Assembly (NCBI GenBank): GCA_025201845.1
Contig: MU604133.1
Span: 6,366-18,053 of the forward strand
Direction: 5' to 3'
Length of the DNA: 11,688 nt
Source of the DNA: Martensiomyces pterosporus
Lineage: Eukaryota; Kickxellomycota; Kickxellomycetes; Kickxellales; Kickxellaceae
Made by a program: the position numbers and the translations under genes. The notes beneath the pieces were generated by a model, which was given only the letters and a program-made list of their open reading frames with translations, did no database searches and was not told where the DNA came from. Numbering within the stretch: position 1 is the stretch's first letter; each line of letters begins with the position of its first letter. Of the stretch, positions 2,476-10,558 are shown piece by piece.

Positions 2476-3366
2476 ATGGCTCCGCCTTCAGCTCGCAAAA
2501 CCTCCAGCCGCCCTCAACATGCCAAAGCCACAGAGCAGCCCGCGTATGAGAGCGACCAAAGATCGCTGTCAAACACAGATGATGCTACTTCTAACCGTGA
2601 GGGTGACCAGAAGTCAACTTCCTTCTTCCTACGAGCCCTCCCAATGGTATCTCTGTCTGAAGCTGCAGCACGCATCGACCTGTTCGATGGCGAAAACCCA
2701 CTAGTGACAGCGCGCTGGCTCAAGCACATTGAGAGGCTTTACCCTGAGGGGTCGGTCTGGCATGGTGATCGCCTGGTCCTCGCCAAGATGCGCCTGGAGG
2801 GAGGCGCCAAGGCAGCCATCCAGAGGGCAGACCCCGACGACTGGGAGGAATTCAAGAAGTTCCTCCTGAAATACGTCAACCCAGAGGCAGCAATCTCTGT
2901 GCTTGATGAGCAGCTGTACAACAGGACCAGATACAAGGGCATGCCGCCAATGCACGCTATACAGATGGCCATCACTGATCGACTCGACCTTAGGTGCTAC
3001 TGCGGCGCCGGCACGCACGACCGTAGGATACTGAAGGCACTAATGGCCATCTTCCCCGACACGATGCTGATGGCAATGTGCTTCTCGCCAGCTGGGGACT
3101 TTGACTCCCAGATCAAGCAGCTGGAGAAGCATGTAAAGGCGGCCATTGCCCGTAACGACTCCGGCTTCAGGTGAGCCAGCATGGGCCATACACAGGCGTT
3201 CAGCGCTACCCCCAAGGGCAAGGGCAGGAAGAGCAGGAGGAACACCAAGAAGGCAAAATCTGCAGCCGCCCCTCCAGCCAGCAACGCCGAGCTGAATGCC
3301 AAAATCCAAGCCCTGCAAGAGCAGGTAGCCAAGCTCACAGAACTTCTTAGTCAACGATATTTCTGA
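2476..3366 (+). pseudogene. gag: Retrotransposon Gag (capsid) with an in-frame TGA
   Basis: From ATG 2476 (A at -3) 232 codons run to TGA 3172-3174. Residues about 60-200 look like a retrotransposon Gag/capsid domain: ARIDLFDGENPLVTARWLKH, a charged amphipathic region, then a WEEFKKFLLKYV helix. Past the TGA the same frame continues for another 64 codons to 3366. It gives a lysine/arginine-rich stretch (KGKGRKSRRNTKKAKS) and a heptad-like coiled coil (AKIQALQEQVAKLTELL), which is what a Gag C-terminal nucleic-acid-binding tail should look like. The TGA is thus most likely a mutation splitting one ORF. No CCHC zinc knuckle is present. The protein would package element RNA into virus-like particles. 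The copy is probably inactive, since the polymerase region is missing. Confidence 0.8.
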
Positions 3367-3719
3367 AGCAGCTGGGAGGCGTGAGTGTAGCCAATAAATT
3401 GATTGACGACCCAAACAACTGCCCGGCCATTGCCAAGGACAAAACAATGGCACAGGCTCTCGGTGGAAACAACCACGGCGGAGGCGTTGTGACAATAAGG
3501 ACGGAGATTTCGGGACAATTTGTTGAAGCAGTGGTTGACACAGGTGCCGGTGCCTCATTCTTTGCAGAAACACTTTGCCATGAGGGTTTGACGCCCAGTA
3601 TTCCACCGACGAGCATTGAGGCTGTGTCCACTGTCCCATTGGCACAAGCCCTTTTTGTGGCTCTAGTCGGTATTAGCAGCTGTAGAGGTTCGGGTTTTGC
3701 AAGACGCGCCCTGTCTTGA
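3351..3719 (+). pseudogene. pro: Retroviral-type aspartic protease fragment of the element
   Basis: A frame offset by -1 from Gag opens at 3351, overlaps the Gag tail by 16 nt, and runs to TGA 3717-3719. Its core is VTIRTEISGQFVEAVVDTGA followed by GASFF, the catalytic Asp-Thr-Gly motif and flap-preceding strands of a retropepsin. It has no ATG until about 3447, so it would be made as a Gag-Pro fusion. The overlap is compatible with -1 frameshifting, but I see no canonical slippery heptamer, so a decayed indel is equally possible. The second half (after about 3640) no longer looks like protease, and the usual C-terminal motif before reverse transcriptase is missing. Confidence 0.78.
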
Positions 3720-3997: not shown

Positions 3998-4014
3998 TGA
4001 GTCATTTTTGACTC
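3998..4014 (+). promoter_or_regulatory. Gcn4/CPC1-type amino-acid-control sites
   Basis: TGAGTCA at 3998-4004 is a perfect match to the bZIP general amino-acid control element (TGASTCA). TGACTC at 4009-4014, followed by T instead of A, is a six-of-seven match five bases later. The pair lies 345 bp upstream of the CPS start. Arginine-pathway genes are classical targets of Gcn4/CPC1, so induction under amino-acid starvation is a reasonable inference. The factor itself is not in the window. Confidence 0.65.
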
Positions 4015-4035: not shown

Positions 4036-4239
4036 CCACCCCCAAGCCACCGAGTTTTTATCATGCGCTCTGCCCTTTAAATGCCCACACCGCCTCTGCT
4101 GAAGAACCCAAGCCTCCAACAATTTAAACCTGCTGAACAAGCGACCTCTCTCTCTGCTGCTGCTGCTACCTCTCCTTTTTGCTTCTGGCTGAACTCGCTT
4201 CGCTTTATCCAAAACAAACCGCCTCGAGTGTTCTCTTTT

Positions 4240-4311
4240 ATGTACCACCATCATAGCGAGAAGAACGCCTGTGACTACATCGCTGACCAAGTTTGGAAGA
4301 CTCTGATCTGA
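4240..4311 (+). CDS. uORF encoding an arginine attenuator peptide (AAP), upstream of the CPS large subunit
   Basis: A 23-codon ORF, ATG 4240-4242 to TGA 4309-4311, ends CDYIADQVWKTLI. Asp12, Tyr13, Asp16, Trp19 and basic residue 20 occupy the same positions as in the 24-residue Neurospora arg-2 AAP. The yeast CPA1 leader peptide has the same core shifted by one. From what is known of that family, the nascent peptide stalls the ribosome at the uORF stop codon when arginine is high, blocking scanning to the main start, and the residue at Asp12 is essential. Here the uORF start has U at -3 (weak context, permitting leaky scanning), whereas the main ATG, 37 nt after the stop, has A at -3. No other AUG lies between about 4100 and 4349. 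The frame also extends upstream to an ATG at 4081, which is probably outside the mRNA. The classical AAP precedes the small subunit; here the large one follows. Confidence 0.88.
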   Translation: MYHHHSEKNACDYIADQVWKTLI

Positions 4312-4348
4312 ACGCACTCCCCAATATCCTCTTTTTGTTTTATCGAAA

Positions 4349-7300
4349 ATGCTCAGTGCTCGTGCTACCCTCTCCAGGGGCTCTCTAATCCCCCGTGTGG
4401 CCTCTGCCACCACCCACCGCCATTTGGCTCACGCCAAGAGCTCTCTCGCCGCTCTCCAGCGCCACCAGCTCCACGCACCCAAGGCTGCAGCCGGAGGAGG
4501 CGCTCGCAGCTACTCTCGCCTCTCTACAATCAACACTGCTCGCTCAATTCGTTTACCCAAGCCAGCTGCCTCGCTTTCTGCCCAGTACGTCGGCCGCCGC
4601 AACTTCAGCGGAGCCCGGGTGCATCTGTCGCCCAACTCCGCCGTCACCACGGCCTCCTCGCTCGCGCGCACTGGCGCCAAGATCGACGTCAAGAAGGTCC
4701 TCGTCGTCGGATCCGGCGGCCTGAGTATCGGGCAGGCGGGCGAGTTCGACTACTCCGGGTCGCAGGCGATCAAAGCGCTCAAGGAATCCAACATCGAGAC
4801 GGTCCTGGTCAACCCCAACATCGCCACGGTGCAGACATCCCACGAGCTGGCCGACCACGTCTACTTCTCGCCCGTCACACCCGAGTACCTGGCGCAGATC
4901 ATCGAGAAGGAGCGCCCCGACGGCATCATGCTGGCATTCGGCGGACAGACCGCCCTTAACTGCGGTGTGCAGCTCAACAAGATGGGCGTTCTGGACAAGT
5001 ACAACGTCCAGGTGCTGGGCACATCGGTGCGCACGCTGGAGCTGTCGGAGGACCGCGATCTCTTTGCCAAGGCGCTAAAGGACATCAACATTCCGGTCGC
5101 CCACTCCACTGCCGTCAACACCGTCCAGGATGCCCTCGATGCGGCGAAGGAGATCGGGTACCCCGTGATTGTGCGGTCTGCCTACGCCCTCGGAGGTCTT
5201 GGGTCCGGGTTTGCCGCGTCGGAGGCTGAGCTGCAGTCGCTGGCCAGCCAGAGTCTCTCCCTGTGCCCGCAGATCCTGGTCGAGAAGTCGATGCGCGGGT
5301 GGAAGGAGGTCGAGTACGAGGTCGTCCGCGACGCGCAGGACAACTGCGTCACCGTCTGCAACATGGAGAACTTTGATCCGCTGGGGATCCACACCGGCGA
5401 CTCGATTGTTGTTGCGCCCAGCCAGACGCTGTCCGATGAGGAGTACCACATGCTGCGCACGGCGGCGATCAAGATCGTCCGGCACATGGGCGTCGTGGGC
5501 GAGTGCAACGTCCAGTACGCGCTCAACCCCCACAGCCTGGAGTTCTGTGTGATCGAGATGAACGCGCGCCTGAGCCGCAGCTCTGCCCTCGCATCCAAGG
5601 CGACCGGGTATCCGCTGGCGTTCGTTGCTGCCAAGATCGGGCTCGGATGGACCCTTCCCGAGCTGCAGAACAGCGTCACCACCACCACAACGGCGTGCTT
5701 CGAGCCTAGCTTGGACTACATTGTGACGAAGATCCCGCGCTGGGACCTGAGCAAGTTCAACCACGTCAGCCGCGACATCGGCTCGTGCATGAAGTCTGTT
5801 GGCGAGGTGATGGCGATTGGCCGCACGTTCGAGGAGAGTCTGCAGAAGGCCATCCGCTCGGTCGACCCCTCGTTCTCGGGCTTTGCGCCCCTTGCTGGCT
5901 GCATGCCTGAGGACGCTGCCGAGCTGGAGGAGATGCTGCGCAACCCGACGGACCGCCGCCTGTTTTATCTGGCCTATGCGATGATTGAGCGCGACTACAC
6001 GGTGGACCAGCTGCACGAGATCACCAAGATCGACCGGTGGTTCCTGTACAAGCTGGAGAACATCTGCAAGATCCACAAGGCGCTGAAGGACCCGCATCAG
6101 ACGCTGCACAACCTCAACCGCACGGAGCTTGAAACCGCCAAGCGCGCCGGGTTCTCGGACCTGCAGATCGCCAAGCTGCTCTCGTCGGGCGGCAAGCAGG
6201 CGTCTTCCGAGGACGCGGTGCGCTCGGTGCGCAAGCAGTTCGGCCTGCGCCCCTTCGCCAAGCGCATTGACACGCTGGCGGGTGAGTTCCCTGCGCCCAC
6301 GAACTACCTGTACACCACGTACAACGCATCCACGGACGACGTCAAGTTCGACGAGCGCGGCACCATGGTCCTCGGGTCGGGCGTCTACCGCATTGGGTCG
6401 TCGGTCGAGTTCGACTGGTGCGGCGTGTCGGCCATCCGCGCGCTGCGGCAGCTGGGCCACAAGACGATCATGGTCAACTACAACCCCGAGACGGTGTCGA
6501 CGGACTTTGACGAGTGCGACCGCCTCTACTTTGACGAGCTCTCGTACGAGCGCGTGCGGGACATTTACGAGATGGAGCACTCGAGCGGCGTCGTTGTCAG
6601 CGTCGGCGGGCAGCTGCCGCAGAACATTGCCCTGCGCCTGCACCAGAACGAGGTGAAGGTGCTGGGCACTCGGCCCGAGAAGATTGATGCGGCGGAGGAC
6701 CGCCACCGCTTCAGCCAGATTCTGGACGACATTGGCGTGGACCAGCCCGCGTGGAAGGAGCTGGTGAGTGTCGAGGACGCCGAGGAGTTTGCGCAGAACG
6801 TTGGATACCCCGTGCTCATCCGCCCGTCGTACGTGCTTTCGGGCGCTGCGATGAACGTCGCCTACGACGCCGAGTCCCTGCGCAGCCACCTGCAGCTGGC
6901 AGCGTCGGTGAGCCCCGAGCACCCCGTCGTCGTCACAAAGTTCATCCGCGGTGCACGCGAGCTCGACATTGATGCGGTCGCGCACGACGGCCAGCTGATC
7001 GTCCACGCGGTCAGCGAGCACGTTGAGGACGCCGGCGTGCACTCGGGCGACGCTTCGCTGATCCTCCCTCCGGCGAACCTCTCCGACGAGGTCATGCAGC
7101 GCGTCAAGCACATTGGCGAGAAGGTGGCCGCGGCGTTTGAGATCTCGGGTCCGTTCAACATGCAGATCATCATGCAGCCCGGCTCTGCGGGCGAGTCCCC
7201 CGCGCTGAAGGTGATCGAGTGCAACCTGCGTGCGTCGCGGTCGTTCCCGTTCGTGTCCAAGGTCACGGACGTCAACTTTGTCGACATCGCCACGCGCGCC

Positions 7301-7996
7301 ATCATTGGCGAGGGCGTTCCTGCGCCGCGCGACCTGATGGCCGGCAGCAAGCAGTGGCCGTACACCGCCATCAAGGTCCCCCAGTTCAGCTGGACGCGTC
7401 TGGCGGGCGCCGACCCCTTCCTTGGCGTTGAGATGTCCTCGACGGGCGAGGTTGCGTGCTTCGGCAAGACGCCCGAGGAGGCGTACCTGGTCTCCCTTCT
7501 GTCGACCAACGGGTTCCGCCTGCCCAAGCCCGGCAAGTCAGTCTACATCGGCGTCGACGACCTGACCGACCCCCGCATTGTGCAAAAGGTTGCCGCGCAC
7601 TTCTCGCGCTCCGGGTACCCGATTCTCACCGACCAGCCCAGCACCGCGCAGCTGCTCTCAGACGGCGGCGTCAAGGACGTGAAGGTGGCCAAGCTGGACT
7701 ACAGCAACCGGCGCACGCTGCGCGACGAGGTGTTCGGCAACGGCATCGACCTGGTGGTCAATCTGGCCAAGCACCGGCCCACGGACAAGACGGACGCCAA
7801 CTACGGAATGCGCCGCATGGCTGTTGACTTTGGAATCCCGCTGGTCAACGACCAGAGGTGTGCCGAGATGCTCATCGATGCGATTGCCGCGCTGCCGGAG
7901 GGCGCTGCCACGGCGCTGTACGGCACTGGCAAGCTCAACATCGAGACGCCCGTGGAGGTCAAGTCGTGGAGCGAGTACCTCGGCATGCGCAACTAG
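4349..7996 (+). CDS. CPA2: Carbamoyl-phosphate synthase, arginine-specific, large subunit, mitochondrial precursor
   Basis: A complete intron-free ORF of 1215 aa. With the glutaminase subunit (not in the window) it makes carbamoyl phosphate from glutamine-derived ammonia, bicarbonate and two ATP, feeding ornithine carbamoyltransferase. Residues 1-112 contain no Asp or Glu and are rich in Arg, Ser and Ala, so they form a mitochondrial presequence. RSYS (53-56) and RRNFS (83-87) resemble processing sites. The mature body starts near 113 with KKVLVVGSGGLSIGQAGEFD. ATP-grasp half 1 carries YPVIVRSAYALGGLGSG (271-287) and VIEMNARLSR (401-410). The oligomerisation region spans about 515-665. Half 2 repeats these motifs as YPVLIRPSYVLSG (820-832) and VIECNLRAS (955-963). 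A C-terminal MGS-like regulatory domain spans about 1060-1215. No glutaminase or ATCase domain is fused, so this is not the pyrimidine CAD-type enzyme. The ORF is markedly GC-rich compared with its neighbours. An arginine uORF and Gcn4-type sites precede it. Confidence 0.96.
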   Translation: MLSARATLSRGSLIPRVASATTHRHLAHAKSSLAALQRHQLHAPKAAAGGGARSYSRLSTINTARSIRLPKPAASLSAQYVGRRNFSGARVHLSPNSAVTTASSLARTGAKIDVKKVLVVGSGGLSIGQAGEFDYSGSQAIKALKESNIETVLVNPNIATVQTSHELADHVYFSPVTPEYLAQIIEKERPDGIMLAFGGQTALNCGVQLNKMGVLDKYNVQVLGTSVRTLELSEDRDLFAKALKDINIPVAHSTAVNTVQDALDAAKEIGYPVIVRSAYALGGLGSGFAASEAELQSLASQSLSLCPQILVEKSMRGWKEVEYEVVRDAQDNCVTVCNMENFDPLGIHTGDSIVVAPSQTLSDEEYHMLRTAAIKIVRHMGVVGECNVQYALNPHSLEFCVIEMNARLSRSSALASKATGYPLAFVAAKIGLGWTLPELQNSVTTTTTACFEPSLDYIVTKIPRWDLSKFNHVSRDIGSCMKSVGEVMAIGRTFEESLQKAIRSVDPSFSGFAPLAGCMPEDAAELEEMLRNPTDRRLFYLAYAMIERDYTVDQLHEITKIDRWFLYKLENICKIHKALKDPHQTLHNLNRTELETAKRAGFSDLQIAKLLSSGGKQASSEDAVRSVRKQFGLRPFAKRIDTLAGEFPAPTNYLYTTYNASTDDVKFDERGTMVLGSGVYRIGSSVEFDWCGVSAIRALRQLGHKTIMVNYNPETVSTDFDECDRLYFDELSYERVRDIYEMEHSSGVVVSVGGQLPQNIALRLHQNEVKVLGTRPEKIDAAEDRHRFSQILDDIGVDQPAWKELVSVEDAEEFAQNVGYPVLIRPSYVLSGAAMNVAYDAESLRSHLQLAASVSPEHPVVVTKFIRGARELDIDAVAHDGQLIVHAVSEHVEDAGVHSGDASLILPPANLSDEVMQRVKHIGEKVAAAFEISGPFNMQIIMQPGSAGESPALKVIECNLRASRSFPFVSKVTDVNFVDIATRAIIGEGVPAPRDLMAGSKQWPYTAIKVPQFSWTRLAGADPFLGVEMSSTGEVACFGKTPEEAYLVSLLSTNGFRLPKPGKSVYIGVDDLTDPRIVQKVAAHFSRSGYPILTDQPSTAQLLSDGGVKDVKVAKLDYSNRRTLRDEVFGNGIDLVVNLAKHRPTDKTDANYGMRRMAVDFGIPLVNDQRCAEMLIDAIAALPEGAATALYGTGKLNIETPVEVKSWSEYLGMRN

Positions 7997-8245: not shown

Positions 8246-8917
8246 GGCAGGAGGAAAGCACCGTTGCTTGCTGCTGCCTGTGTTTGGTGCACTGCCCTCT
8301 CTCGCCTCTGCTGCTCTTCCTTTGTGGCCGCCCCTCTCACGCATTTGCTGTTCCCCACCACACAAACACACCTTTCTCTCTCGCTTGTTGCTCTCTTCTC
8401 CTCGCTTCTCTCTCCCCGCTTTGGTCTTGCTCTCCTCTTGTTTTCTCGCCTGTGCTGCTTCTGGCTCATTCGGAGCACTGTTGGCAATTCAGAGCAGTCG
8501 ACTAAGTGGCTGTGCACACAGAGCTGGTGGGTTTGTAGGGAGCGGCAGAGGCACTTGTAAATGGCAGCAGCACTCTTGGGCACGGGCAGCAGCGCTTTCG
8601 GTGGCAGCAGGCACAGTGCTGGTGGTTGCAGCACACACCCACAGCCTCGGCGCATCGGCTGGAGCAGCAGCGAGCAACAGCGCACCACCCAGCACTGCCT
8701 CTGGTTGCATTGCATGTTGTGGTTTGGGCGGAAGCAGCAAAACAAGCAAGGTGGTGAACCGATCTGAGGTACGCCGATCAACAGGGAATTATACTGATCC
8801 TGGCTGTAGCTGCGGCCGCAGTGTTATCAACACAGCATTAAAGCGATGCAACATAGCAACCTGTGTTTTGTCTCTACTTTCTACCCCTGCGTTCCTGTAT
8901 TTCCCAATACTCTCAGC
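8246..8917. other. Low-complexity intergenic flank and upstream region of the F-box/LRR-like gene
   Basis: A pyrimidine-rich tract (about 8370-8460) is followed by a GCAGCA-rich stretch (about 8558-8690). A long plus-strand frame passes through it (8268-8981), but it starts without ATG. Its translation is Ser/Ala/Leu-rich low complexity and it runs into the F-box/LRR-like gene out of frame, so I do not call it a gene. A perfect 12-bp palindrome CTGCGGCCGCAG lies at 8810-8821. I see no clear TATA box. An ATG at 8846 is in frame with the gene at 8918. Confidence 0.5.
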
Positions 8918-10558
8918 ATGGCTTTATTGGACGAGTTGCCTTTGGAGATCTTGCTCGCAGTTGTTAAGTGGCTTAGCATAAAGTATTGGGATGAGCTTGA
9001 ATTCTGCCAGCTGCTGCCTGTGGCGAGCGTCAATACCAGTCTGCGCCGGTCCCTGCTACCCCTGCTCTACAGGGACCTGGTGTTCAAGTTTATAGGTTAT
9101 GGTGATGTCACTTTCCACAACGCTGCCCTTGCAAATTCGGCAGGGTGCTCAGAGTATGTGCGGCGCGTGTCGCTGTTTGTAATTACAAGCACAACTCTGG
9201 ATAATATAGTCAGGGTGGTGAGAGATGTCGTAGATGCGGGAAACGAGACCAAATGGCCAAATCTGCGCTCATACGCCTGCATCTACGACCATGAGTATTT
9301 GGAGAGTGATGACTGGTTTTCTTGCTCAGACTTCATCAGGCAGCTTGATAACCAACTTCCTAAGCTACGCCAAGCATCTCTCGTTACTTGCGGCGTGTCA
9401 TCAGACGTTGTAACACTTGCCTACACTCCACCTTCGCTGTCCTTCTCGACCCAGCTCACATCGCTTTGTCTGGACTGTAAAAGCCAGTGCATCGACGCCA
9501 ACCACTTGCCACTGATTTTCGCACCTACCTTGGTCGACCTCGCGCTCTACGGTATTAATCCCAATAACGTATGGAACATATTCTACGACGGTCACGAAAA
9601 CCAGACCGTGGTGTTTGCCAGACTCAAGCGTCTGAATGTTATCTTTACAAGTCCATTGATATGGGCGTGGAACCATCACCCACCCCCTCACTTGGAAGAT
9701 GCTACGAGAGGCATTCTGACAAAGATGTCTGTGTGGACAGCTGGAGCTACTAGTGGTAAGCCAGTCTGCCGAGTGCCTTTGTTCCCGGTTCTTCGTACTC
9801 TCAAGTGCGAAGATATGACGTACGACTTTTGCGATTTCATCTCTCGCACCCAGTGCCACAATAGCCTGGTGTCACTGCGCGTGAGAAATTACTATGTGCA
9901 CTTTGATTTCGACGCCGAACTGTTCAAAAGCCTAGAAACTGTCGAGTTTGACGCTAATGTGAGAGGCAGCGAGGAAGAAATCGCTGGCCCTGTGGGTCTC
10001 TATAAATCTGCGTTTGCCAGCCTACTGCGCGCAAAGACAAACATGCAGAGGATGGAATTCAAGTCGACTGTGCGTGATACACTCTTCCAGGTGCCGCCAG
10101 ATATTGGGTGCACTAACCTGCGCTCGCTGTTTCTCGAGGTGGAGGTCGACTTCAAGTCAATGCTTCGACTCCTCAGCAATCTGAAGCACCTCATCCAGTT
10201 GGAGCTCTATATCAATGGTGCGTCTACCTATGGGTCTGGCGGTGGGCGGCGGGATACCACCGAATACACCGTCGAGCTTCAGCCACTTCAAGCCGAGTAC
10301 CCGCCCGTGAGCCGCACTCTGCGTCGTCTCGCTTGCCGCCTGCACAGTCCAAGAGGGCGCCATCGCTACACAGCAAATTATGCGCTTGAGCTTGCACTGC
10401 ACCTCCCTGCACTCGAAAGCATGAGCCTGAGTGTGCGCCTACAAAGCAACGCCGTGTTCTTAGAAGCGCTGCTAGGCAAGTTTTGTGAAGCGCTGTCGGG
10501 ATCTCCATATATGAACAATGGACTCTTGAATGCCAAAATTGAGCAACGCTATTGGTGA
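8918..10558 (+). CDS. F-box/LRR-like protein, intact
   Basis: The ORF from ATG 8918 codes for 546 aa. An in-frame ATG at 8846 would add 24 residues, but 8918 puts the F-box-like start MALLDELPLEILLAVVKWL at the N-terminus, as in related proteins. This is followed by EFCQLLPVASVNTSLRRSLL and PLLYRDLVF (residues about 30-60). The remainder carries scattered leucine-rich segments: LPKLRQASLV, STQLTSLCLDC, APTLVDLALYGI, FARLKRLNVIF, FPVLRTLKCEDM, NSLVSLRVRN, TNLRSLFLEVEV, LKHLIQLELYI and LPALESMSLSV. I see no transmembrane segment or signal peptide. The layout fits an SCF ubiquitin-ligase substrate receptor, but the F-box match is weak and the target unknown. It is a divergent paralogue of the broken minus-strand gene at 196-1884 and has no interrupting stop. 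Confidence 0.82.
   Translation: MALLDELPLEILLAVVKWLSIKYWDELEFCQLLPVASVNTSLRRSLLPLLYRDLVFKFIGYGDVTFHNAALANSAGCSEYVRRVSLFVITSTTLDNIVRVVRDVVDAGNETKWPNLRSYACIYDHEYLESDDWFSCSDFIRQLDNQLPKLRQASLVTCGVSSDVVTLAYTPPSLSFSTQLTSLCLDCKSQCIDANHLPLIFAPTLVDLALYGINPNNVWNIFYDGHENQTVVFARLKRLNVIFTSPLIWAWNHHPPPHLEDATRGILTKMSVWTAGATSGKPVCRVPLFPVLRTLKCEDMTYDFCDFISRTQCHNSLVSLRVRNYYVHFDFDAELFKSLETVEFDANVRGSEEEIAGPVGLYKSAFASLLRAKTNMQRMEFKSTVRDTLFQVPPDIGCTNLRSLFLEVEVDFKSMLRLLSNLKHLIQLELYINGASTYGSGGGRRDTTEYTVELQPLQAEYPPVSRTLRRLACRLHSPRGRHRYTANYALELALHLPALESMSLSVRLQSNAVFLEALLGKFCEALSGSPYMNNGLLNAKIEQRYW

Follow-up and report, generated by a model that had tools for sequence, protein, structure and literature searches.

The window (the whole stretch of 11,688 nucleotides of Martensiomyces pterosporus DNA that was analysed) carries, ahead of the gene for the large subunit of the arginine-specific carbamoyl-phosphate synthetase (CPS), the enzyme with which arginine synthesis begins, a short uORF at positions 4240..4311 of the forward strand that, judged from its sequence, is very probably an arginine attenuator belonging to a paralogous pair by which both CPA1 and CPA2 would be governed. 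In the genome, the uORF was found before the genes of both subunits of this enzyme and before no other gene. Among eukaryotic sensors that act as nascent peptides, the arginine attenuator peptide is a textbook case. Briefly, in Neurospora arg-2 and yeast CPA1, arginine acts on the ribosome together with the nascent peptide and the ribosome stalls at the uORF stop, which blocks scanning to the main start, while a weak context of the upstream start codon (uATG) lets some ribosomes through. In the case of yeast CPA1, mRNA decay accompanies attenuation. In the known attenuators, changing the aspartate at residue 12 to asparagine (D12N) abolishes the arginine-dependent stalling at the uORF stop. 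To our knowledge, the peptide is known only ahead of the small CPS subunit, and we know of no such uORF before yeast CPA2. The Neurospora counterpart of CPA2 is named arg-3.

Translation of the 72 nt at 4240-4311 gives the arginine-attenuator-type leader peptide MYHHHSEKNACDYIADQVWKTLI followed by a TGA stop, which confirms the 23-codon frame described in the earlier note, and the identification draws in addition on Pfam and on a genomic paralogue. The features that we take to be canonical for an attenuator are D12, Y13, D16, W19, a basic residue 20 and a weak uATG context. All of these residues are present, as had been noted, at the expected positions in a uORF of about 24 codons. The spacer between the uORF stop and the main start (4312..4348, forward strand) comprises 37 nt and is ATG-free, with the main ATG at 4349. 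As also described earlier, the uATG stands in a weak context. Its -3 position is occupied by T, that of the main ATG by A. The accompanying claim that the leader holds no other AUG is correct for the spacer and for the 130 nt 5' of the uORF, but an in-frame ATG is found at 4081, from which the uORF would be extended to 76 aa (4081..4311, forward strand), and further ATGs exist farther upstream. Since the ATG at 4081 sits within a TATA-like element (4076-4090), this extension is probably untranscribed. A leader intron was considered as well and rejected, as no GTRNGT donor-like site was found in either the CPA2 or the CPA1 leader.

The gene that follows (4349..7996, forward strand) encodes a full-length CPS large subunit of 1215 aa, in agreement with the earlier description, and was identified as the CPA2 orthologue by its match to TIGR01369 (CPSase large subunit; 1470.8 bits versus a cut-off of 1027) and by the presence of the expected CPSase_L and MGS domains (Pfam). 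Its product aligns with CPS chains in the PDB of both the mitochondrial ammonia type and the bacterial type. Acidic residues are absent from the first 108 positions, where 16 Arg/Lys occur, and this part would resemble a mitochondrial targeting sequence. Within the genome, CPSase_L_D3 has two matches, namely the gene in the window and a 2256-aa open frame on contig C17 that bears a small-chain domain as well. As befits an arginine-type CPA2, the window gene is a stand-alone large subunit separate from the pyrimidine fusion gene, and its contig, C191, is the one with the only stand-alone large subunit found in the genome. A foreign origin of the contig was considered and rejected in view of the third-position GC (0.87 in CPA2, 0.80 in CPA1 and 0.77 in a third gene), values that do not by themselves prove that C191 is native.

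Other open reading frames in the window were inspected by eye. The one at 2476-3174 looks retrotransposon gag-like and has no Pfam match at E up to 1, and around 3480-3600 a DTGA motif is encoded that is like that of a retroviral-type aspartic protease, so that the region 2476-3660, upstream of CPA2, is probably a decayed retroelement. Frames resembling fungal F-box/leucine-rich proteins lie at 8846-10558 on the forward strand and at 1348-1884 and 196-888 on the reverse strand; the 570-aa frame of this kind has no Pfam match at E up to 1.

The earlier note had left it open whether attenuation would act on the large subunit by itself or on both subunits, and the genome points to the latter, as the CPA1 orthologue of the same genome has a paralogous uORF, recognized from its sequence. 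This second uORF, on contig C87, encodes MYAHSSEKNSSDYIADQVWRSLNF (L018:1773-1847) and its stop lies 103 nt 5' of the CPA1 start. The CPA1 open reading frame comprises 441 aa with CPSase_sm_chain and GATase domains, and is the genome's only stand-alone small-subunit gene. Of the three small-chain family matches in the genome, two are on C17, as is one of the two large-chain matches, all of them in or beside the 2256-aa open frame and, as expected, fitting a pyrimidine fusion gene. The start contexts in the CPA1 leader match those of CPA2 (T at -3 of the uATG, A at -3 of the main ATG), and the two peptides are of nearly equal length (23 residues for CPA2, 24 for CPA1). Thus, the leader of a small subunit, the place of the known attenuators, is occupied by the C87 copy, whereas the copy in the window stands ahead of the large one.

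Family membership was assessed by hmmscan against 24,736 Pfam models. The sole match of the window peptide was PF08252 (Leader_CPA1, the arg-2/CPA1 leader; E 0.039, 13.8 bits, 19 of the 23 profile positions covered), and the same family was the sole match of the CPA1-leader peptide (E 0.023, 14.5 bits, 14 of 23 positions). Both scores are below the curated gathering cut-off of 18.5 bits, and our claim is therefore limited to relatedness and attenuator-like working and does not extend to Pfam membership. In a six-frame search of the genome with PF08252 neither copy was reported, the first look passing no candidates, and among 14 control bacteria and archaea the profile gave a sub-cut-off match in one. 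When compared by BLOSUM62 with the Neurospora and yeast peptides, the window uORF scores 40 and 50, respectively. Ranked among 970 ATG open reading frames of 12-60 aa, drawn from 70 kb and 17 sources with partly overlapping loci such that some frames were counted twice, the two uORFs take the first and second place (40-55 versus at most 31 for the next).

The comparison of the two copies indicates that it is the peptide that has been kept, and their split does not look recent. Over 22 residues the peptides are 73% identical, and in the core from D12 to W19 (D12-Y-I-A-D-Q-V-W19, encoded at 4273..4296 on the forward strand) all eight residues are the same while 5 of the 8 codons differ. At the DNA level, 5 of the 24 core nucleotides differ, all at third codon positions and all synonymously (p ~0.0013, considering position alone), which argues for conservation of the peptide rather than of the DNA. 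Where both copies have the same residue, 6 of 14 codons are identical, while the codon usage of the two genes would predict 10.0, and the DNA thus does not look recently copied. Outside the known stalling core, A15, Q17 and V18 are common to both copies, where the Neurospora peptide has S, H and L and the yeast peptide S, H and I. Residues 2-11 are identical at 6 of 10 positions, a value reached by 64 of 200,000 permutations, and the Neurospora and yeast peptides share 1-2 of these 10 with the copies.

Based on these shared residues, duplication is favoured over convergence, and of the three origins offered earlier (moved, duplicated or convergent) the evidence leans towards the second. An independent origin of the two uORFs, with the stalling peptide having arisen convergently on CPA2, seems unlikely to us, even if it is the best of the alternatives: the spacers of CPA2 and CPA1 are not similar (their score is reached in 153 of 300 shuffles) and the number of identical synonymous codons falls below that predicted by codon usage, as independent origin would allow, but it would leave the common A15, Q17 and V18 and the N-terminal identity without a shared source, as well as a TATA-like element that is found at -164 and -160 from the two uORF starts. 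A segmental duplication of the whole leader was rejected, given the dissimilar spacers and coding starts that are not clearly similar (43 of 300 shuffles). The second copy most likely stems from a duplication of the uORF between the subunit genes, perhaps together with the core promoter.

The promoter side of this reading relies on the TATA-like core element TTTAAATGCCCACAC (4076..4090, forward strand), which has a counterpart, TATAAATACCCACAC, before CPA1 (C87:68112-68126). The pattern TWTAAATRCCCACAC, which was built from these two sites, has only two matches in the genome, before CPA2 and CPA1. Position-matched core-promoter blocks of the two genes are alike; their score is attained by 4 of the 8755 remaining block pairs, which overlap one another. 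Similarity of the upstream regions is weak (5 of 300 shuffles when 500 nt are compared, 12 of 300 with the last 170 nt) and a pyrimidine-rich stretch drives the score. Homology of the two promoters is weakly indicated. A shorter form of the element, TAAATRCCCAC, has 13 matches in the genome versus 2 for the reversed control, 11 of them besides the pair; since it is commoner than the control, a wider promoter type is possible, and the element may belong to a general core-promoter class of this fungus. Upstream of it, TGAGTCA at 3998..4004 (forward strand) is a Gcn4-type site by the consensus TGA[CG]TCA, and a site of this form is found upstream of the CPA1 uORF too.

It may also be asked whether the CPA2 copy is a mere relic of the duplication, with no arginine-responsive stalling, so that only the CPA1 copy regulates. 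Such a relic could account for the replacement of the canonical S15 and H17 by A and Q, and for the slightly lower Pfam score of the CPA2 copy (13.8 versus 14.5 bits). However, the same replacements occur in the CPA1 copy, the residues that are key in known attenuators are retained, as is the place of the stop, and core differences that are without exception synonymous are not expected of a relic; we regard this explanation as improbable. Still less credit can be given to the shared stretch being a DNA or RNA regulatory element that is not translated: the two genes that contain it do function together and have core-promoter elements that resemble each other, but the confinement of all five core differences to synonymous third positions is against it, and we hold it to be very improbable.

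The attenuator reading was further examined in the host genome (17.4 Mb, 216 contigs), which was searched for DNA encoding DYxxDxxW, with the reversed pattern as control. The motif alone is no commoner than chance, as there are 13 sites versus 12 for the control. A short ATG uORF ending 4-5 residues after the W is formed at only 2 of the 13, before CPA2 and before CPA1. With frames followed only within 3-kb loci, the other 11 comprise 6 sites without an ATG before the motif and 5 in ATG open reading frames of at least 254 residues; all 11 have at least 18 residues after the W, and ten of them (all but C71:65170) lie in stop-to-stop frames of at least 46 residues. The exception, DYLADSLW at C71:65170, was rejected as a third attenuator, because it is out of frame inside a 969-aa open reading frame and its own frame lacks an ATG. 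When each peptide served as query in a protein search of the whole genome, no further copy was returned at E up to 10. A more diverged third copy could escape, since D, Y, D and W are fixed in the pattern and only the best candidates are scored in the protein searches. Outside the host, the codon pattern DYI-x-D-[QH]-[ILMV]-W-[KR] had no match in the collection of prokaryote genome contigs, and a PDB search with the peptide gave none. Three loci were hit in viral contigs, all with the same motif in a 546-aa open reading frame that looks phage-helicase-like by eye, and were set aside as irrelevant. At the genome rate of DYxxDxxW, the motif would be expected by chance in a given 500-nt leader with a probability of ~2e-4, and in both leaders with 3.5e-8 if placement is uniform and independent. 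Thus, that a random short open reading frame merely looks like an attenuator, for which the sub-cut-off Pfam scores and the commonness of the bare motif could be cited, is hardly credible in the face of these figures and above all of the CPA1 copy, which puts a similar pair before both subunits of one enzyme.

Taken as a paralogous attenuator pair, the two uORFs would probably cause both enzyme subunits to be turned down together when arginine is plentiful. At low arginine, many ribosomes would scan past the weak uATG or complete the uORF normally and then produce the subunit. When arginine is high, the nascent chain in the exit tunnel, with D12, Y13, D16, W19 and K/R20, would stall the ribosome at the uORF stop, and the stalled ribosome would block the scanning ribosomes that follow, such that the output of both subunits would fall together; mRNA decay would possibly join in, as in yeast CPA1. 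With the sensor on both mRNAs the subunits would be kept matched. Arginine attenuation of the large subunit, as proposed earlier, accordingly stands as to the placement of an attenuator-type uORF before that gene, the stalling itself being what we infer. We find it somewhat more probable than otherwise that the stalling peptide was duplicated between the CPS subunit genes, possibly with a core promoter, and now links two mRNAs from separate contigs in a post-transcriptional regulon, where they would use the same nascent-peptide sensor and both subunits of a mitochondrial enzyme would be repressed in step. If true, a stalling-peptide uORF would here have spread from one gene to another, and paralogous copies before both subunits would demonstrate that sensors of this kind are able to do so. 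The arrangement also suggests that translation may serve in this lineage to adjust the large subunit, which could otherwise be produced in excess, to the small one. In addition, A15, Q17 and V18 constitute a natural variant for defining the requirements of stalling.

By its sequence, then, the pair formed by the window and C87 copies appears as a variant on the known attenuator that is found before the large subunit also. As in Neurospora crassa arg-2, an arginine-specific CPS gene has in its leader a uORF of about 24 codons with D12, Y13, D16, W19 and a basic residue 20 in the same places and a stop 4-5 residues after the W. The core differs, being DYLSDHLW in N. crassa and DYIADQVW here, and while arg-2 has the peptide before the small subunit, the second copy here precedes the large one. 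The Saccharomyces cerevisiae CPA1 uORF peptide is similar in that its DYI-x-D-x-x-WKT fits the window peptide; unlike the latter, it has 25 aa, with S and H where A and Q are found here.
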